Positions 19,427-29,335 of a stretch of 37,594 bases of DNA are shown in pieces (positions within the stretch are counted from its first letter, which is position 1; the number at the start of each line of letters is the position of its first letter). The translations under genes were made by a program, and so were the position numbers. A model generated the notes under the pieces. That model did no database searches. It worked only from the letters and a program-made list of their open reading frames with translations, and had not been told where the DNA came from. This stretch comes from Nitrospira sp. (lineage in GTDB: Bacteria; Nitrospirota; Nitrospiria; Nitrospirales; Nitrospiraceae), in contig SWDI01000005.1 of the NCBI GenBank assembly GCA_005116955.1, positions 572,319-609,912 on the forward strand, in the 5' to 3' direction.

Positions 19427-19966
19427 TTATTCTCGCGTCAACAGGACTTGCAAATCGCGCAAGCGACCTTGGACGGTGCTGTCGACTACTTTGCTACCGA
19501 TCTGAATCTGCAAGCCGGCGAGGTGACTGGCATCGGTCTGAAATGTGACATCGACGTCGCGCTTCAACGTGTCACGGAGGCGCGTCCTGATTCGATCTTG
19601 TTCCGCCGGCGGAAGAGCCGTCGCGGAAGACACGGTCACCGGCTGCGTTCGCTTTAATTGATCAACCAACTTGCCGAAGGCGTCGGCGATTTCCGGCAGA
19701 AATCCCACCCGATTTTTCTTCACCAATTGACCCAGGAATGCTTTACCGGCTGGAGGGCACCCCAGCTTCTCGCCGAGTGCGGTCAGGACGGCAATTTTCT
19801 CCTCCACCCCGAACGCAGGTGACGCCACCACATGACGAAGATGGGCGGATTCCTTCATGGCCAGACCGAGGTCAGTAAGTGTCCCCCGCGTGGCTTCGAT
19901 GGTTGAATGATCGAGGAGCTCGAAGAGGGCCTGGGCGTAACGTCGCGCAACTGTTGTCTTAATCAC
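19427..19966 (-). CDS. atpH: F1-ATP synthase delta subunit
   Basis: A 179-residue delta (OSCP) subunit with the family start A-R-R-Y-A-Q-A-L-F-E-L and helical N-terminal domain; it links F1 to the b-subunit stalk. The start is GTG 19966. It is the first gene of the operon here: upstream lies a divergent unrelated gene, so atpB, atpE and atpF must be elsewhere. Confidence 0.95.
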   Translation of the reverse strand: MIKTTVARRYAQALFELLDHSTIEATRGTLTDLGLAMKESAHLRHVVASPAFGVEEKIAVLTALGEKLGCPPAGKAFLGQLVKKNRVGFLPEIADAFGKLVDQLKRTQPVTVSSATALPPAEQDRIRTRLRDTLKRDVDVTFQTDASHLAGLQIQIGSKVVDSTVQGRLRDLQVLLTRE

Positions 19967-20215
19967 CGTTTAGCATCCACATGCGTTATTTTGACAAACC
20001 TAAAGATTTCGTGCGAGGCACGAAGCAGAGCGCGAAAATTAGCACTGAGACCTATGAGCTGTCAATACGCGACAGGCACGGGCGGACAAGTTACTCGTCA
20101 ACACAGTCAGGCGAGGAATACGGTGTATACTGGACGTCGATCGGCGGCGTACGCCCGGTTCCTCAAGCAATCCCACTCACACCAGGGTTCGATAACGAGT
20201 GGGCGGAGGTGAGCC

Positions 20216-21298
20216 ATGCGAAAACAATTGACCTTATCGACCCTCGCACTCTGTCTCGTTCTGAGCCTGATGCCCTCATCTGCCTCTGCCTACCGTGAAT
20301 ACTTTACGCCAGAGCAAAAGAATCGGCTGGGAAAAATTCAGACCGTGTTAGTCGATGTCCTCACCATCACGGATAAGGGCGGAGTGGATGCTGGCGCCTT
20401 AGCCGAGGTCGTCGCCCAGCGTCTGACTGAAGCCGGGTATGCAACCGTTCGCGATCCGGCCAACCCTCACGATGTCGTCTTTCGCGTGAAATGCGAGCAA
20501 CGTAAAACCTGGGAAGGCACGACGGCCACGGGAGGAGATGCCGACCTGCCCGACGCCCCATCGCGCCTCTGGAAGGGGCCTGCCTGCCAGCTGACCTACC
20601 TGCTCGGCGGGATGAAGATCAAATGGCAGAAAGAAGTACGCACGGAGTTCGAAGATGCCGTGGCGGCCGCACAGGCGGCCCACGTCGCTGATCCCGGCCT
20701 GTATGCAATGACCAAGTTGCAGGAAGCGCTCGCCACGTACGACTTTCCACTCCTTCTCGCGGCGGAATGGGGCCATGCCGATCGGCTCCTCACCATGCTC
20801 GACTCCCCGGATGTCAGTCAGGCCCGGAAGATCAAAATCATGTCATTGCTTGGTGAGATGCAGGCTGACGAAGCCCTGCCCAAGTTGAAAGAAGCGCTGA
20901 AAAATAGGGATCTGGCTAAGCAGGCCATTCTCTCCATGGGCAATCTCGGCAAAGACGGCATTCCATTGCTCGTCGACTTGATGAATACCTCGCCTCAGCT
21001 GGAAATTCAGGCAGCGGCTGCCAAAGGGCTTGGGCAGATCGGCGGCATCAACGGTGATGCGTCTGTCGTGCTGCCGCTGCTGGCAAAACTTCAAGATTCA
21101 AAGACCGACTGGACGGTCCTCACGGAAGTGGCCTGGGCGCTAGGCAAAATTCCCGATAAGCGATCGATCCAACCACTGTATGATCTCGACAAAAAGCTGC
21201 AGGCCATCCGTGATCCTGACAACGTGATCCTCAAGAAGCTCAAGGAAGCCGTCTTCTGGTCGATCAAACAATGCGATACGTGGGATCAATTTAGTTGA
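20216..21298 (+). CDS. Exported HEAT-repeat protein
   Basis: A 360-residue protein with a signal peptide (M-R-K-Q-L-T..., cleavage near S-A-S-A), an N-terminal alpha/beta domain (about 26-170) with two cysteines, and HEAT/PBS-like helical repeats from about 190 to 320 (A-L-P-K-L-K-E-A-L, A-A-A-K-G-L-G-Q-I, V-A-W-A-L-G-K-I). Such repeats form protein-binding solenoids, so a periplasmic scaffold is likely. ATG 20216 has GGAGG directly upstream. The 249-base gap to atpH holds no gene. Confidence 0.8.
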   Translation: MRKQLTLSTLALCLVLSLMPSSASAYREYFTPEQKNRLGKIQTVLVDVLTITDKGGVDAGALAEVVAQRLTEAGYATVRDPANPHDVVFRVKCEQRKTWEGTTATGGDADLPDAPSRLWKGPACQLTYLLGGMKIKWQKEVRTEFEDAVAAAQAAHVADPGLYAMTKLQEALATYDFPLLLAAEWGHADRLLTMLDSPDVSQARKIKIMSLLGEMQADEALPKLKEALKNRDLAKQAILSMGNLGKDGIPLLVDLMNTSPQLEIQAAAAKGLGQIGGINGDASVVLPLLAKLQDSKTDWTVLTEVAWALGKIPDKRSIQPLYDLDKKLQAIRDPDNVILKKLKEAVFWSIKQCDTWDQFS

Positions 21299-21462: not shown

Positions 21463-21491
21463 TTGCCAATGTCCTAAATTTGAGACATACT
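21463..21491 (+). promoter_or_regulatory. Promoter of the toxin-antitoxin pair
   Basis: TTGCCA (21463-21468) and CATACT (21486-21491) are 17 bases apart. Transcription would start about six bases later, at or next to the GTG (21498) that begins the toxin, suggesting a leaderless message. No Shine-Dalgarno site precedes that GTG. Confidence 0.45.
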
Positions 21492-21497
21492 CCATAT

Positions 21498-21830
21498 GTG
21501 AAGTCGATCACCTTTCACCCGAAAGCCCTGGCATTTATCCGTGACCAGTCGCCGGCGCTCAAGCGGGAAATCGGTGAGGCACTGCGGGATCTGCAGAAAG
21601 GCATCAGCATTGGGCTCCCGCTCAGCAGACCAATGCCTTCAGTCGCAACAGGAGCGTATGAGCTCAGAGTGCGAAGCGCGACAACGACGGTGCGAGTATT
21701 CTACTTTGTTAAACTGGCCAACACGATTCTGGTGTTTCATGGGTTTCAGAAGAAGACGCAGAAAACACCGGCCCACGAACTTGCACTCGGCCAACAGCGT
21801 TTACAGGAGATGATAGATGGCAACGACTAG
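21498..21830 (+). CDS. HigB/Gp49-like toxin (RelE superfamily)
   Basis: A 110-residue protein of the phage Gp49-like (DUF891) branch of RelE-type toxins: basic, with the closing strands Y-E-L-R-V-R..., V-R-V-F-Y-F and I-L-V-F-H-G-F-Q-K-K-T-Q-K-T-P followed by an A-x-x-R-L-Q-E-M helix. Members cleave mRNA at the ribosome. The GTG at 21498 gives the usual family N-terminus; the TTG at 21480 would add six residues inside the promoter. It overlaps the antitoxin gene by 14 bases. Confidence 0.85.
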   Translation: MKSITFHPKALAFIRDQSPALKREIGEALRDLQKGISIGLPLSRPMPSVATGAYELRVRSATTTVRVFYFVKLANTILVFHGFQKKTQKTPAHELALGQQRLQEMIDGND

Positions 21831-22128
21831 ATCCAGCAAACGAGTGACGGTTCGATCAGCCAAAGATCTGGGGCATGCGCTGGGCTTGTCCGCGGCGGAT
21901 ACCGCTGAAATGGAATTTCGGTCGGAACTCACCGTCGCCCTGGCCAAAATCATTCAAGCCGGTCGGCTGACCCATCTCGCGATTGCAAAGAGTGCCGGAA
22001 CATCACGAACACGGGTGACGGCGATTGCGAATGGGAATACCCACGGGGTCTCGACCGATGTGCTGATTCGGGTCCTGGCCGCAACCGGTCATCGGGCAGA
22101 AGTCCGGGTCAAAAAGGCAGCAGCCTAA
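21817..22128 (+). CDS. HigA-like XRE-family antitoxin
   Basis: A 103-residue helix-turn-helix protein (HTH about 45-93: L-T-H-L-A-I-A-K-S-A-G-T-S-R-T-R-V) with a basic tail. It should neutralise the upstream toxin and repress the promoter. Toxin-first order with overlapping genes is characteristic of HigBA. Downstream, 22129-22412 holds no gene I can support. Confidence 0.85.
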   Translation: MATTRSSKRVTVRSAKDLGHALGLSAADTAEMEFRSELTVALAKIIQAGRLTHLAIAKSAGTSRTRVTAIANGNTHGVSTDVLIRVLAATGHRAEVRVKKAAA

Positions 22129-22412: not shown

Positions 22413-23693
22413 ATGTCAGAACCAACGATTACCTGTCCAAACTGCAAGACTGAAATCAAGTTAACTGAATCCCTCGCCGCTCCCTTGATCGAGTCAACTC
22501 GTCGCGACTACGAGAAGCGGCTGGCGCTGAAAGACACGGACATTGCCAGGAAAGAAGAGTCTCTACGCGAGCGGGAGGAAGCGGTCTCGAAGGCTAAGCA
22601 GGCCATCGACGATCAGGTTGCCGAAAAGCTCACAGCGGAACGAGCGAAGATTATCAGCGAGGAATCCAAGAAGGCCAAACTCGCCCTGCAATCGGATATC
22701 GACCAGAAAGCACGAGAACTCGCAGAACTTCAAGATGTCCTCACTCAACGAGACGTCAAACTTGCCGAGGCTCAGAAGGCACAGGCCGATCTCATCCGAC
22801 AAAAGCGCGAACTTGACGATGCTAAGCGTGAGCTAGAACTCACGGTCGAAAAGCGTGTCCAAGATGGGCTTTCCGTCACCCGCGAGCAGGCCAAGAAGGA
22901 AGCCGAGGAAGGCCTGAAGCTCAAGGTGATGGAGAAGGAGCAAACCATCGCCTCCATGCAGACCCAGATCGAGGAACTCAAACGCAGAGCCGAACAGGGC
23001 TCGCAGCAGCTCCAGGGCGAAGTCCAGGAGTTGGAGCTGGAAGCCTTGCTACGGGCAAAGTTCCCCAGGGACACAATCGAACCTGTGCCTAAAGGTGAGT
23101 TCGGCGGGGATGCACTCCAGCGAGTCATGGGGCCTCTCGGTCAAGTCTGTGGAACCATCTTATGGGAGTCTAAGCGAACGAAAAATTGGAGTGACGGTTG
23201 GTTGGTCAAACTCCGTGACGATCAGCGAACGGCGAAAGCAGACATTGCTATTATCGTCAGTCAGACTCTTCCCAAGGACGTTGAGTCTTTTGATCTGGTT
23301 GATGGAATTTGGGTGACGAACGCAAAGTCGGTGTTCTCCTTGGCAGTTGCTCTCCGCCATTCCTTAATCGAACTCGCCTCGGCTCGACAAGCCTTAGAAG
23401 GACAGCAGACAAAAACCGAAATGGTCTATCAGTATCTCACCGGCCCCCGGTTCCGCCATCGCGTTGAAGCCATCGTCGAGGCCTTCTCTTCGATGCAGGA
23501 GGATCTAGACAGAGAAAAAAAGGCCATAACCAAGCAATGGGCCAAGCGCGAAGAGCAAATCGAGCGCGTAATGGGTGCGACGGCGGGCATGTATGGCGAT
23601 CTGCAAGGAATAGCCGGAAAGTCAATCCAAGAAATCGAGGGATTGGAGCTGAAAGCCTTGGAGATCGATCCAACAAGACGCTTGTTCGAATAG
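22413..23693 (+). CDS. DUF2130 coiled-coil protein with a PD-(D/E)xK-like nuclease core
   Basis: A 426-residue protein. C8-x2-C11 at the N-terminus looks like half a zinc ribbon. About 30-205 is a long charged coiled coil. About 205-345 is the DUF2130 core, where E208/E210, D233 and E252-S-K254 in W-E-S-K, followed by D-D-Q near 269-271, line up like a PD-(D/E)xK nuclease site. A second short coil and an L-E-x-K-A-L-E tail end it. DUF2130 has no settled function; the nuclease reading is mine. The next gene, an ABC ATPase with a zinc hook, starts 63 bases later on the same strand. ATG 22413 has AGGA upstream. Confidence 0.8.
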   Translation: MSEPTITCPNCKTEIKLTESLAAPLIESTRRDYEKRLALKDTDIARKEESLREREEAVSKAKQAIDDQVAEKLTAERAKIISEESKKAKLALQSDIDQKARELAELQDVLTQRDVKLAEAQKAQADLIRQKRELDDAKRELELTVEKRVQDGLSVTREQAKKEAEEGLKLKVMEKEQTIASMQTQIEELKRRAEQGSQQLQGEVQELELEALLRAKFPRDTIEPVPKGEFGGDALQRVMGPLGQVCGTILWESKRTKNWSDGWLVKLRDDQRTAKADIAIIVSQTLPKDVESFDLVDGIWVTNAKSVFSLAVALRHSLIELASARQALEGQQTKTEMVYQYLTGPRFRHRVEAIVEAFSSMQEDLDREKKAITKQWAKREEQIERVMGATAGMYGDLQGIAGKSIQEIEGLELKALEIDPTRRLFE

Positions 23694-23756
23694 TCAAAAG
23701 ATCACCAGATCAGCGATCCCCGATTGCCAACGGAGAAGGGGATTCGAGGAGACGAC

Positions 23757-26039
23757 ATGCTTGAGCGGATCGAGGAGATCCAGGGCATAGGCTTGTTACA
23801 CGCGGCGAACGGCAAGCCACACAAATATCTTAGGACGACGCTCATCTATGCTGACAACGGACGGGGTAAATCTACACTGGCCACTGTGTTGCGATCATTA
23901 TCCACTGGCGACGCATCCTTAATTTTGAATCGCAAGACAGTCGACGGAACCTTACCCCCTCAAGCAGTGCTGCAGTTTGCAAACGGCCACAAGGTTACCT
24001 TTTCCCGAAACGTTTGGTCCGAACTACGTCCAGAACTGTTGGTCTTCGACTCTGCCTTCATCGAACGGAATGTGCATTCCGGCTCAGTGATCAATACGGG
24101 ACACCGAAAGAACCTTCTTGAATTTGCACTTGGCGAGCCGGCAGTTGCCGCACGCGGCGCAGTTGACCAGGCAACGGCGACAGCAAAGGCAGCAACAGAC
24201 AAGGTACAAGAGATCATCGGTCAGCTCTCTGGACACCATCCCGGCTTGTCGTTGGTTGAGTTTGAAAAGCTTCCAAGCGCGCCCGACGCTGACGGGCAGA
24301 TAGCAGCACTACAAAAGCGCCTCATTGACGCAGGCAATGTTGCCGCGATCATCGCGAAGCCGATGCCAAAGCAGGTCCCAGAACCTACCTTTGATTTAGC
24401 GAGGTTGTTTGAAGGGCTTAGAAGTTCCCTCAAAGATGTACATGCGGATGCAGAACAGGTCGTCAAGCAGCATGGTCGAAAGATTGGAGGCAATGGCGCG
24501 GAAGCCTGGTTAAGCCAAGGGCAACAGTACGAAGGCGACAATACATGTCCGTACTGTGGCCAAGGCACGAAGGACAATGACCTAATTCGAGCGTACCAGA
24601 CTCATTTTAACGCCGCTTATGCGGCGCTGAAAAAAGAGGTTGTAGACCTACACGCCACTGTCGTCGCAGGCACCGATGCAGCCATCATCGATGCGTTTTC
24701 TCAAGGTATTTTCACTGCTAAGGCGCAAGCAGCAGCATGGAGTGAACTGGTACAAACAAAGCCCATCGAATTCGTCGATGCACCAGCACGTTCGGCACTC
24801 GCTGAACTCCAGGAGCTAGTTCTCGATCTAGCTCGACGCAAACAGGCCTCGCCCGCCGAGCCGATTGGCACTGCTTCAGATTTGGAAAAGGCGAGGTCTT
24901 TGTGGCAGCAGATGCTCGCACCCATGCAGTCCGCAAACGAGATCGTGAAGGATGCCTCTGCGTTAATTACGGCATACCAGGGGCAGCTTGCCACTGACAG
25001 TGCGCAGCAGTTACAGGAACAGATCGAGCGGCTTCAAGCGTGTAAGCGCAGACATGATTCAGTCGTAGTTGGTCTGTTCGACCAGCTCGTTACATTGCGC
25101 GCTGATGCGGCCAGCGCGGAAATTACTAAAACAACGGAACGCGACAAGCTAGACGCACTGATGGCGACGACGTTGCAGCAATACGAGACAACGATCAACG
25201 CGCTTCTAAAGAATTTTGGCGCCTCGTTTAGCATAAAGGGAATGACCGCAAACTTTAGAGGCGCAGGCCCACGAACCGAATACGGTCTGGTATTGCGAGG
25301 CAAAGACGTTGCTTTGGAAGGTGCCCCACCATCATTTGCCACAACCTTGAGCGAAGGTGACAAGCGCACCTTAGCCTTCGCCTTCTTCATCGCCAGCACG
25401 CTCGCCGACACCACATTAGCCAACCGGATCGTCGTTGTTGACGATCCGATGTGTAGTTTGGATCTAAATCGGAAGCACCACACGAAGTCAGTGCTGAAGA
25501 ATTTGCGATCTAAGGCTGAGCAACTTATCGTCCTCGCGCATGATCCGTACTTCATTCGTGACCTACGAGACGCGATGTGCAAGGATGATCCTGCGACTCC
25601 AATTGCCATTTTCCAACTCGCCCTCGCCGCAAACAATTACACAGACTTTTCATCTTTCGATGTAGACAAAGAGTGTGAGTCTGCCTATTTTCAGCACCAT
25701 CGTCTGTTAAACGAATTCACCGAAGGGAGCGCAGCGGATTCGCGGATGGTCGCAAAGACAATCCGGCCAATGCTTGAAGGATATCTTCATCGCAGATTCC
25801 CCGGTCTTATTCCGAAATCGTTGATGTTTGGCCAAGTAGTCGCATTGATCCGCGATGCGCCACCTTCTAGCCCTTTGACTTACGCACAAAATCTCGTTGT
25901 CGCACTGAACGAGATCAATGAATATGCCGGCCAGTTTCACCATGACGACCCAAGCACCGCTCAAATAGCCATTGTATCTAACGAGCTAAAGACAATCGTT
26001 GATAGGTCTCTAGGACTGGTTCATCGGGGAACGCCGTGA
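23757..26039 (+). CDS. PrrC/RloC-like ABC ATPase with CxxC zinc hook (AAA_13)
   Basis: A 760-residue protein. Walker A A-D-N-G-R-G-K-S-T at 32-40; coiled-coil arms at about 135-200 and 380-475; a C-P-Y-C hook at 264-267; ABC signature L-S-E-G-D-K-R at 531-537; Walker B I-V-V-V-D-D-P at 558-564; H-loop H595. This is AAA_13 architecture as in the anticodon nucleases PrrC and RloC; the CxxC hook points to RloC. In the C-terminal domain R670-x3-E674 and H728/H729 resemble the Arg-x3-Glu...His triad reported for PrrC. tRNA cleavage is inference. ATG 23757 is chosen for its GAGGAG site. Partner gene: DUF2130 just upstream. Confidence 0.85.
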   Translation: MLERIEEIQGIGLLHAANGKPHKYLRTTLIYADNGRGKSTLATVLRSLSTGDASLILNRKTVDGTLPPQAVLQFANGHKVTFSRNVWSELRPELLVFDSAFIERNVHSGSVINTGHRKNLLEFALGEPAVAARGAVDQATATAKAATDKVQEIIGQLSGHHPGLSLVEFEKLPSAPDADGQIAALQKRLIDAGNVAAIIAKPMPKQVPEPTFDLARLFEGLRSSLKDVHADAEQVVKQHGRKIGGNGAEAWLSQGQQYEGDNTCPYCGQGTKDNDLIRAYQTHFNAAYAALKKEVVDLHATVVAGTDAAIIDAFSQGIFTAKAQAAAWSELVQTKPIEFVDAPARSALAELQELVLDLARRKQASPAEPIGTASDLEKARSLWQQMLAPMQSANEIVKDASALITAYQGQLATDSAQQLQEQIERLQACKRRHDSVVVGLFDQLVTLRADAASAEITKTTERDKLDALMATTLQQYETTINALLKNFGASFSIKGMTANFRGAGPRTEYGLVLRGKDVALEGAPPSFATTLSEGDKRTLAFAFFIASTLADTTLANRIVVVDDPMCSLDLNRKHHTKSVLKNLRSKAEQLIVLAHDPYFIRDLRDAMCKDDPATPIAIFQLALAANNYTDFSSFDVDKECESAYFQHHRLLNEFTEGSAADSRMVAKTIRPMLEGYLHRRFPGLIPKSLMFGQVVALIRDAPPSSPLTYAQNLVVALNEINEYAGQFHHDDPSTAQIAIVSNELKTIVDRSLGLVHRGTP

Positions 26040-26100: not shown

Positions 26101-26544
26101 ATGACTGAAAATTATCATCTCCACCGCTTCCTCCACGCCCAAGAGGGCGTCTATGACACAGTCCTTGCTGAGCTTCGATCCGGGGAAAAGTCCAGCCACT
26201 GGATCTGGTTTATCTTTCCGCAGATCACCGGTCTTGGTCAGAGTAGCATGGCGCAGCAATTCGCCATTACCTCACTCGACGAAGCCAAGTCCTACCTGCA
26301 ACACCCAATCCTAGGCCCCAGGCTCAGGGCCTGTACGCAGATTGTGCTCGACGTGAACGGTCGCAGCGCTGAAGAGATTTTCGGATATCCCGACCATCTC
26401 AAATTCCGGTCCTGCATGACCTTGTTTCTGACCGCTGCCACCGACAACGCCCTCTTCAACAACGCCCTGCTCAAATACTTCGACGGCAAGCCGGACCACC
26501 TGACGCTGGATCTCCTGGCCCAGCACAACATGCCACGGTGCTAG
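26101..26544 (+). CDS. DUF1810 family protein, copy 1
   Basis: A 147-residue soluble protein with the family's H-R-F-L-x-A-Q start, S-H-W-I-W-F-I-F-P-Q motif (about 32-41) and A-L-L-K-Y-F-D-G-K-P-D-x-x-T-L-D end. The function is unknown. It is about 76% identical (my hand count, 110 of 144 positions) to copy 2 at 28901-29335 and shares long nucleotide blocks with it. Confidence 0.85.
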   Translation: MTENYHLHRFLHAQEGVYDTVLAELRSGEKSSHWIWFIFPQITGLGQSSMAQQFAITSLDEAKSYLQHPILGPRLRACTQIVLDVNGRSAEEIFGYPDHLKFRSCMTLFLTAATDNALFNNALLKYFDGKPDHLTLDLLAQHNMPRC

Positions 26545-26610: not shown

Positions 26611-26901
26611 CTAGGAGGCTTTGGCGGGTTTGTGATGCAACTCGGCCTGAACACGTTCGAGCACGAAGAGCTTGAGCAGTGTCTGATACGGGACGTCGCG
26701 TTTGTTTGCGATCGTCTTGAGTTGATCCAAGAGGGATTTTGGCAGGCGGAGCGAAATTGTCTCGGTGGACGGCTTCAACCGGGGAAACACCATCCGACGA
26801 CTCTTGGAGTAGTCGACATACTCCGTTGAGTCGTGTGACGCCCAAAACTCAGCTTCCTGCTTCTCACTCTTGAACGTCGGTCTTTTTTTGAGTTTGGTCA
26901 C
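26611..26901 (-). CDS. CopG-type (BrnA-like) antitoxin
   Basis: A 96-residue ribbon-helix-helix antitoxin of the BrnA type: F-K-S-E-x-Q-E-A-E-F-W-x-x-H-D-S-T-E-Y near 10-28, then P-S-T-E-T-I-S-L-R-L-P-K-S-L-L-D-Q-L-K and V-P-Y-Q-T-L-L-K. It should bind DNA as a dimer. The GTG start (26901) lies inside the end of a decayed BrnT toxin gene, which is the normal overlap of such pairs. The antitoxin thus survives without its toxin. Confidence 0.85.
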   Translation of the reverse strand: MTKLKKRPTFKSEKQEAEFWASHDSTEYVDYSKSRRMVFPRLKPSTETISLRLPKSLLDQLKTIANKRDVPYQTLLKLFVLERVQAELHHKPAKAS

Positions 26902-27143: not shown

Positions 27144-27455
27144 CTACGCTGCGCCTTTGCGCGGTTCGCGATGCAGGGCCTCGGCAACCGCGCGAGGGTT
27201 CCGAGTCGCAACGCGCAGAAGCGCGAGTGCCGGGCCGTCTGGGATGCGCCTTCCCTGCTCCCAGTTGCGCAAGGTCGCCACGCTCACCCCGATCATCAGG
27301 GCAAACTCGGTTTGTGACGCCTTGAGCTTTTCCCGAACACTCTTCACATCGGTCGGTCGAAAGGTCGTCACTCGAGCAGGCTTCATGACCCCTCGCCGTA
27401 TTTTCCCCGCCTGCCGGATGCTCGTCAGTAGTTCCTGAAATGCCGCGTCCTTCAT
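27144..27455 (-). CDS. XRE-family antitoxin (NadS/HigA-like)
   Basis: A 103-residue helix-turn-helix antitoxin (HTH about 48-82: S-Q-T-E-F-A-L-M-I-G-V-S-V-A-T-L). ATG 27455 overlaps the toxin stop by four bases (27452-27455). Longer in-frame starts within the toxin gene have no domain support. It is a type II toxin-antitoxin unit with the RelE-like gene upstream. Confidence 0.85.
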   Translation of the reverse strand: MKDAAFQELLTSIRQAGKIRRGVMKPARVTTFRPTDVKSVREKLKASQTEFALMIGVSVATLRNWEQGRRIPDGPALALLRVATRNPRAVAEALHREPRKGAA

Positions 27456-27769
27456 GTGAATTCCTCCCGAACCAGTTTCGCCAGCGCCTTGAGCTGTGTG
27501 GCCGTCAAATCGCCCTGCTCGTTCTTCGCATAGAGATACAGCATGTAAAATGTCCGGCTTGCCGGTTCCCAATAATAGATGAGGCGTACGCCCCCGCGCT
27601 TACCTCGACCCGGCGCCGCCCAACGAAGCTTTCTCAATCCTGCTCCACCCTGAATAAGTGAGCCTTGGGCAGGACGAAGCAACATTGCCAACTGGAGTTC
27701 GCGATACATCTCATCGTCAAGATGACGACGGAGCGCGGCGGTAAATACCGGGGTCTCGACAAACCGCAT
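27452..27769 (-). CDS. RelE/HigB-like toxin
   Basis: A 105-residue basic RelE-superfamily protein: F-V-E-T-P-V-F-T at the start, G-A-G-L-R-K-L-R-W, R-G-G-V-R-L-I-Y-Y-W, then L-Y-A-K-N-E-Q-G-D-L-T. This is the HigB-like branch usually paired with XRE antitoxins, and it is here. It would be a ribosome-dependent mRNA interferase. ATG 27769; an in-frame ATG slightly upstream cannot be excluded. Confidence 0.85.
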   Translation of the reverse strand: MRFVETPVFTAALRRHLDDEMYRELQLAMLLRPAQGSLIQGGAGLRKLRWAAPGRGKRGGVRLIYYWEPASRTFYMLYLYAKNEQGDLTATQLKALAKLVREEFT

Positions 27770-28900: not shown

Positions 28901-29335
28901 ATGACCGACGCTTACAATCTCCACCGCTTTCTCGACGCGCAAGAGCGCGTCTATGACACAGTCCTTGCTGAGCTGCGGGCCGGGAGCAAGTCCAGCCACT
29001 GGATCTGGTTTATCTTTCCGCAGATCGCCGGCCTTGGTCACAGCGCAATGGCGCAGCAGTTTGCCATTGCCTCACTCGACGAGGCCAAGGCCTACTTCAA
29101 ACATCCTGTCTTAGGTCTTCGGCTCCACGAATGTACGCAGCTTGTACTTGATGTGGAGGAACGCGGCGCAGAGCAGATTTTTGGATATCCCGACTATCTC
29201 AAGTTCCGGTCCTGCATGACCTTGTTTCTGACGGCTGCCACCGACAACACCATCTTCAAAGACGCCCTGCTCAAATACTTCGACGGCAAGCCTGACCAAT
29301 CGACTCTCGACATCCTGGCACAGCAATCGTTTTAG
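28901..29335 (+). CDS. DUF1810 family protein, copy 2
   Basis: A 144-residue paralogue of the protein at 26101, with the same S-H-W-I-W-F-I-F-P-Q and F-G-Y-P-D-Y-L-K-F-R-S-C-M-T motifs. Both copies look intact and both are on the plus strand, bracketing a 2.4-kb segment with three toxin-antitoxin-like units. The function is unknown. Confidence 0.85.
   Translation: MTDAYNLHRFLDAQERVYDTVLAELRAGSKSSHWIWFIFPQIAGLGHSAMAQQFAIASLDEAKAYFKHPVLGLRLHECTQLVLDVEERGAEQIFGYPDYLKFRSCMTLFLTAATDNTIFKDALLKYFDGKPDQSTLDILAQQSF

Follow-up and report, generated by a model that had tools for sequence, protein, structure and literature searches.

The tails of PrrC and RloC have been assigned to the HEPN RNases, and prophages encode related ABC-HEPN proteins (PMC3710099); RloC itself is defined by the motif R-x3-E-x36-52-H, whose triad has been confirmed with mutants of the G. 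kaustophilus protein (PMC2610378). A probable protein of this kind is encoded in a stretch of 37,594 nucleotides from a Nitrospira sp. genome (contig SWDI01000005.1), called here, at its full length, the window, where its gene directly follows one for a protein of the family DUF2130. This AAA_13 ATPase shares with RloC, PrrC and the prophage ABC-HEPN family APECO1_4465 a Rad50-like ABC head and a CxxC hook in a coiled-coil insert, and it has a C-terminal R-x3-E...H motif resembling theirs (PMC2610378, PMC3710099), APECO1_4465 being set beside it by description and context rather than by sequence. Its length of 760 residues lies within that of RloC proteins (658 to 897), and its relatives are also found in prophages and islands.

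The ATPase also matches the PADLOC single-gene candidate PDC-S06 (PDLC04895; 4.1e-63, residues 1-682 of 760), which is a candidate by position with no mechanism and of which DUF2130 forms no part. A hooked Rad50-like ATPase adjoining a nuclease gene is reminiscent of Mre11-Rad50 and SbcCD, but DUF2130 appears to be a PD-(D/E)xK protein, not a calcineurin-like one, and it is not tied to the ATPase. RmuC has a PD-(D/E)xK-like nuclease core, and DUF2130 resembles it in joining a long coiled coil to a predicted core of this type in a single bacterial gene; however, the two belong to different Pfam families, the genes after RmuC are rarely defence genes, and we know of no zinc ribbon in RmuC. Known defence hotspots have fixed flanks and variable defence genes between them, as in the old/tin region of phage P2, whereas the DUF2130 gene is itself one conserved edge in many unrelated places.

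The main finding of this work is that DUF2130 lies directly beside exchangeable defence systems, and our best reading is that it is an unrecognised general companion of bacterial immunity. A first-pass annotation, which was a sequence-only reading of the window, had proposed a defence operon of these two genes, with the ATPase either controlling the DUF2130 nuclease or cutting tRNA itself. Its claims were followed up here by computational analysis. The pair is real and recurring, and the operon reading is too narrow.

22413..23693, + strand, DUF2130 protein of 426 residues (Pfam PF09903, 6e-80)
23757..26039, + strand, AAA_13 / Rad50-like ATPase of 760 residues (PF13166, 8.6e-39)

Both genes lie where the first-pass annotation had placed them, on one strand, with DUF2130 upstream and a gap of exactly 63 bp. 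The ATPase starts at an ATG at position 23757, preceded by an AGGAG-like ribosome site, and the closest relatives of the pair are found in Nitrospira metagenome-assembled genomes (MAGs).

Defence genes adjoining DUF2130

Genomes with DUF2130 numbered 48 of 246 in Nitrospirota, 33 of 398 in Pseudomonadota and 16 of 289 in Verrucomicrobiota. When the flanks were read, the next gene on the same strand was often a defence gene, and of many kinds, including SIR2 in addition to those given here (loci are given by their L numbers):

PDC-S06 of another subfamily than that of the window: L066, L069, L074, L121, L251
OLD/AAA_15: L061, L067, L070, L079, L081, L135, L144, L253
SIR2-HerA: L084, L088, L134, L136, L250
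Lamassu LmuAB: L087
LmuB-like SMC: L065, L078
PHP-ATPase: L064, L076
IetAS: L058
Lit: L139
Fic: L096
PLD-helicase: L099
Type III restriction: L127
Type IV restriction: L102
Gabija: L116, on an Aliarcobacter plasmid

HEC-01 and OLD were found on the upstream side (L057, L123), and a Chryseobacterium DUF2130 lies within a type I-like restriction cluster. In Nitrospirota many loci follow one order, with a DrmD-like SNF2 helicase, DUF2130, a variable system, and a type III methylase with its restriction subunit. This arrangement was seen in two phyla (L065, L067, L069, L078, L081, L084, L088, L251, L253), its downstream part not being reached in all loci. An exclusive link of DUF2130 to Rad50-like ATPases is ruled out by the adjoining Lit, Fic, SIR2-HerA, IetAS and restriction genes.

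The pattern is repeated in Verrucomicrobiota, where the four readable loci of DUF2130 subfamily A all carry a defence system (4/4), at gaps of -4 to +19, the cargo there being matched by BLAST to the cargo proteins found earlier and not by PADLOC. Adjoining defence cargo is thus known for two subfamilies of DUF2130 and from at least three phyla. As a control we used RmuC: in Nitrospirota a PADLOC-matching gene comes next downstream at 17 of 50 loci with DUF2130 but at no more than 2 of 20 with RmuC (17/50 versus 2/20, one-sided Fisher p = 0.036, same PADLOC threshold), and one of the two genes after RmuC resembles an ABC-F housekeeping protein. The weight of this control is modest, and contiguity, swapping and the replication in Verrucomicrobiota are the stronger evidence.

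Swapping is seen in near-identical DUF2130 proteins that are followed by different systems (96.5% identity for L067/L069, 94% for L067/L088, 92% for L005/L087 and 91% for L065/L069). The 92%-identical proteins go with Lamassu in one genome and with the window-type ATPase in the other. As near-identical copies stand before unrelated systems, DUF2130 cannot need one specific partner. The DNA of L067 and L069 shows 88.8% identity along 6.7 kb, from the helicase through DUF2130, with the homology ending about 25 to 50 bp before the DUF2130 stop codon and unrelated cargo beyond, while L066 and L069 share DUF2130 and cargo as one 4-kb block that starts exactly at the DUF2130 start codon. Short or overlapping junctions between DUF2130 and cargo are common (gap of -4 in L061, L079, L096, L136, L137, L139, L251, L253 and L254), and these repeated stop-start overlaps suggest co-translation. 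Some copies of DUF2130 are broken, by an internal stop in L058 and by splitting in L101 and L102; the cargo is intact in L058 (IetAS) and L102 (type IV restriction), so it has no obvious need for DUF2130.

Three genes in the downstream position may also be defence genes. One of 498 residues, with neither a PADLOC nor a Pfam match, overlaps DUF2130 by 4 bp (L137:16-1509, - strand). The others, without a PADLOC match, encode 1,111 residues at 544 bp downstream of DUF2130 (L082:7328-10660, + strand) and 340 residues at 444 bp downstream (L085:4465-5484, - strand).

Fold and predicted active site of DUF2130

23109..23174, + strand, predicted active site: D233 (23109-23111), E252 (23166-23168) and K254 (23172-23174), on the second and third core strands of the model
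22434..22445, + strand, C8-x2-C11, putative zinc ribbon, invariant in 13 sequences, with low model confidence at the N-terminus

The protein is laid out as an N-terminal CxxC (residues 8 and 11), a coiled coil (25-216), a predicted PD-(D/E)xK core (about 196-321) and a helical C-terminus. The residues singled out in the first-pass annotation (C8/C11, D233 and E252-S-K254) are all present, and C8, C11, D233, E252 and K254 are invariant in an alignment of 13 divergent DUF2130 proteins with 38 to 92% identity to the query, a degree of conservation that chance would not give. An AlphaFold2 model built from this alignment (mean predicted local distance difference test score, pLDDT, 77.6; predicted template modelling score 0.40) has a helix of 190 residues and, after it, a core in beta-beta-beta-alpha-beta order. 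The core elements after the long helix are strands at 221-224, 234-239 and 245-254, a helix at 263-273 and a strand at 278-283, with D233 at the second core strand and E252 and K254 in the third.

By itself, Foldseek found no significant match to this model (best E 0.011). With VIA-align, nearly all the structures matched by residues 196-321 were PD-(D/E)xK nucleases, with Z scores of 9.3 for McrC, 9.2 for AF1548, 8.7 for the R.BspD6I small subunit, 8.6 for Hjc, 8.3 for FokI, 8.2 for Bax1, 7.7 for Card1, 7.5 for HindIII, 7.0 for both I-Ssp6803I and DdmD, and 6.4-7.2 for SPARDA; single Z values near 8 are insufficient alone for a fold assignment. Because the match list agrees with the invariant D...E-x-K, the modelled nuclease fold is well supported, in line with the nuclease core that had been suggested from the sequence, and DUF2130 may act as a DNA nuclease. 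A sequence search of solved structures with DUF2130 returned coiled-coil noise only, there was no PADLOC match at E<=0.1, and among open papers mentioning DUF2130, PF09903 or COG4487 no title or abstract dealt with function or defence. DUF2130 is a widespread protein of predicted PD-(D/E)xK type that is uncatalogued in defence, with no entry in PADLOC-DB 2023.

Occurrence of the ATPase with and without DUF2130

DUF2130 precedes the ATPase subfamily of the window in two more Nitrospira genomes, at 84-95% identity, and in Methyloglobulus, where DUF2130 is 51% and the ATPase 61% identical and the gap is 48 bp; across the three Nitrospira and Methyloglobulus the gaps range from 48 to 63 bp. In Nitrospirota, Pseudomonadota and Verrucomicrobiota, ATPases of other AAA_13/PDC-S06 subfamilies come after DUF2130, so the recurrent adjacency of DUF2130 and AAA_13 genes, in this broad sense, extends over three phyla. 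In the DUF2130 tree the Methyloglobulus protein groups apart from the Nitrospira ones, which indicates that the pairing arose twice or that one partner was exchanged.

Members of the same ATPase subfamily also stand without DUF2130 in three other Nitrospirota, in a Pseudomonas, in a Verrucomicrobia MAG and on a Rhodoferax plasmid, and seven virus-collection contigs bear relatives of the ATPase without DUF2130. With relatives lacking an adjoining DUF2130 at L007, L008, L105-L107, L118 and L165-L171, the co-occurrence is not obligate. In the P2-like prophages L166 and L167 (6001-8280), a relative with about 37% identity lies, without DUF2130, between what we read as replication-like and portal/terminase-like genes, a region known as a phage defence hotspot. 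The ATPase of these prophages was sought in E. coli genomes and gave no match at the megablast level.

Head, hook, and tail of the ATPase

23850..23873, + strand, Walker A ADNGRGKS (residues 32-39), N34-G35-R36-G37-K38 invariant
24546..24557, + strand, zinc hook C264-P-Y-C267 between coiled-coil arms, with C264, P265 and C267 invariant in 10 sequences
25347..25463, + strand, ABC signature LSEGD (531-535) and Walker B IVVVDDPMCSLD (558-569), with invariant core residues, also recovered by a pattern check
25764..25943, + strand, putative RNase triad R670-x3-E674-x53-H728/H729 in the C-terminal helical domain, invariant in 10 sequences

All the motifs that had been read in the ATPase were recovered (Walker A, CPYC hook, ABC signature, Walker B and R-x3-E...H), and C264, C267, R670, E674, H728 and H729 are invariant in 10 ATPases with identities down to 33%. 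In the model of the protein (pLDDT 79.1) the head matches SMC, Rad50 and RecF (Z 17-19.6) and the tail is helical, while a sequence search of solved structures returned Rad50 only.

The annotation had also proposed a C-terminus like that of PrrC, and this claim stood in part. The R-x3-E...H motif is invariant within a helical domain and is found, with spacings of 38-54, in most AAA_13 proteins checked; its spacing of 53 between E674 and H728 differs from the published RloC range of 36-52 by one residue. The resemblance to PrrC was seen at the level of the motif. When the profile of the tail was compared by hhalign with PrrC proteins collected from genomes, the score of 13.4 fell within the range of shuffled columns, which keeps the RNase assignment at the level of the motif. 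The ATPase is probably an ABC-HEPN-type defence protein with a HEPN-type RNase tail. It is unlikely that the tail is an inactive or DNA-binding helical domain and the ATPase purely a DNA sensor: the lack of a significant alignment with PrrC would agree with such a tail, but the invariance of R670, E674, H728 and H729, at a spacing just outside that of RloC, argues against it.

DUF2130 on phages and plasmids and at the HEAT locus

On virus-collection contigs DUF2130 occurs without defence genes. It adjoins an Enc34-type single-stranded DNA-binding protein (L153), family A DNA polymerases (L153, L154, L158) and SNF2 helicases (L157, L160), and plasmid-borne copies occur close to genes for partition and for ArdC antirestriction proteins. 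This context of phage replication genes and plasmids suggests a function of DUF2130 at DNA ends or in recombination.

In the window, two features lie upstream of DUF2130, the first of them next to the atp operon:

20216..21298, + strand, HEAT-repeat-like protein, present in 60 of 77 Nitrospira genomes with different genes after it
21480..22128, + strand, HigBA-like toxin-antitoxin pair, with a Gp49 toxin at 21480-21830 and an HTH_37 antitoxin at 21817-22128 (Pfam)

The HEAT gene marks a genus-wide turnover spot of Nitrospira that houses DUF2130 and its cargo. At the atpH-HEAT locus (window 19427-21298; L172-L201) it is followed, depending on the genome, by HigBA, by DUF2130, by DUF2130 with type IV restriction, or by nothing recognisable. 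The HigBA-like pair is a separate module of varying position, which in relatives may precede DUF2130, follow it or stand where DUF2130 is missing. At the solo DUF2130 loci L077, L080, L082, L086, L090 and L092 the final ~240 bp of the HEAT gene (window 21047-21288) are present a second time, starting about 4 bp past the DUF2130 stop codon and resembling the duplication left by an insertion.

Interpretation and alternative explanations

On balance we favour, with moderate confidence, two mutually independent modules, a self-contained ATPase cassette and a generic DNA nuclease, DUF2130, that heads exchangeable defence cassettes. The ATPase would be a self-contained defence protein of the RloC, PrrC and PDC-S06 kind, with a Rad50-like zinc-hook head that may sense the state of the DNA during infection and free the C-terminal RNase, which would in turn halt growth. 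As the conserved head of the cassettes, DUF2130 would act on DNA ends in a generic way: it could provide a first layer of DNA degradation, or it could be a recombination exonuclease that aids the movement and exchange of cassettes. We tentatively and only slightly prefer the recombination role over the role in DNA defence, neither being probable by itself. It is also conceivable, at about the same tentative level, that bacterial immunity has in DUF2130 a universal accessory nuclease bound to no particular partner, engaged in recombination or DNA-end processing and co-transcribed with whichever system follows, so driving cassette exchange or giving a shared DNA-degrading arm.

Several points weigh against the two independent modules. 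In Methyloglobulus, a 51%-identical DUF2130 has convergently come to stand with the ATPase subfamily of the window, which could mean functional coupling, as could the gaps of -4 between DUF2130 and cargo. The RmuC control takes no account of residence in defence islands, and close relatives do not count as independent cases. For over half of the sampled DUF2130 genes no adjoining defence gene is recognisable, and the RNase assignment of the ATPase C-terminus comes from its motif.

An unlikely alternative is that DUF2130 has no functional tie to its cargo and is a common gene of islands and mobile elements, its conserved sequence serving as a mere homology arm for insertions. The break of homology at the DUF2130 3' end, the solo copies in the Nitrospira HEAT hotspot, the copies in plasmid backbones by ArdC and partition genes, and the intact cargo beside broken copies would all be accounted for in this way, but not the defence cargo adjoining two subfamilies in at least three phyla nor the co-translation suggested by the stop-start overlaps.

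Still less probable is the dedicated two-gene system, in which the zinc-hook ATPase would sense DNA and control the DUF2130 nuclease, like Rad50 with Mre11. The same-strand pair is kept at gaps of 48-63 bp in three Nitrospira and Methyloglobulus, AAA_13/PDC-S06 proteins are among the commonest partners (window, L006, L066, L069, L074, L121, L251, L249), and the ATPase head resembles Rad50/SMC. However, ATPase relatives often occur alone, the ATPase has an RNase-like motif of its own, DUF2130 adjoins a dozen unrelated defence systems in the same manner, including some with no Rad50-like part (Lit, Fic), and 92%-identical DUF2130s go with Lamassu or with the window-type ATPase; the pair is not supported as one dedicated system. 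A homing endonuclease is also conceivable in view of the HEAT-gene fragment bounding the solo copies and a weak match to I-Ssp6803I, though no target site is defined for it.

If the two-module reading is correct, a family without a known function and absent from PADLOC-DB 2023 marks exchangeable defence genes by position alone, and DUF2130 could be used as bait for new systems, several unidentified genes being already in that position. The fast exchange of defence-island contents, and the service of one shared nuclease to many unrelated systems, would then become testable.

Other genes of the window

The toxin-antitoxin neighbours, which the first-pass annotation had taken as signs of a defence island, are real by Pfam, with the Gp49 toxin and HTH_37 antitoxin upstream of the pair and CopG, helix-turn-helix (HTH) and RelE genes downstream. 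Two DUF1810 genes (window 26101-26544 and 28901-29335) recur downstream of DUF2130 at the same locus in several Nitrospira genomes. Between them in the window lie a CopG-type antitoxin (26611-26901, - strand) and a RelE/HTH toxin-antitoxin pair (27144-27769, - strand).

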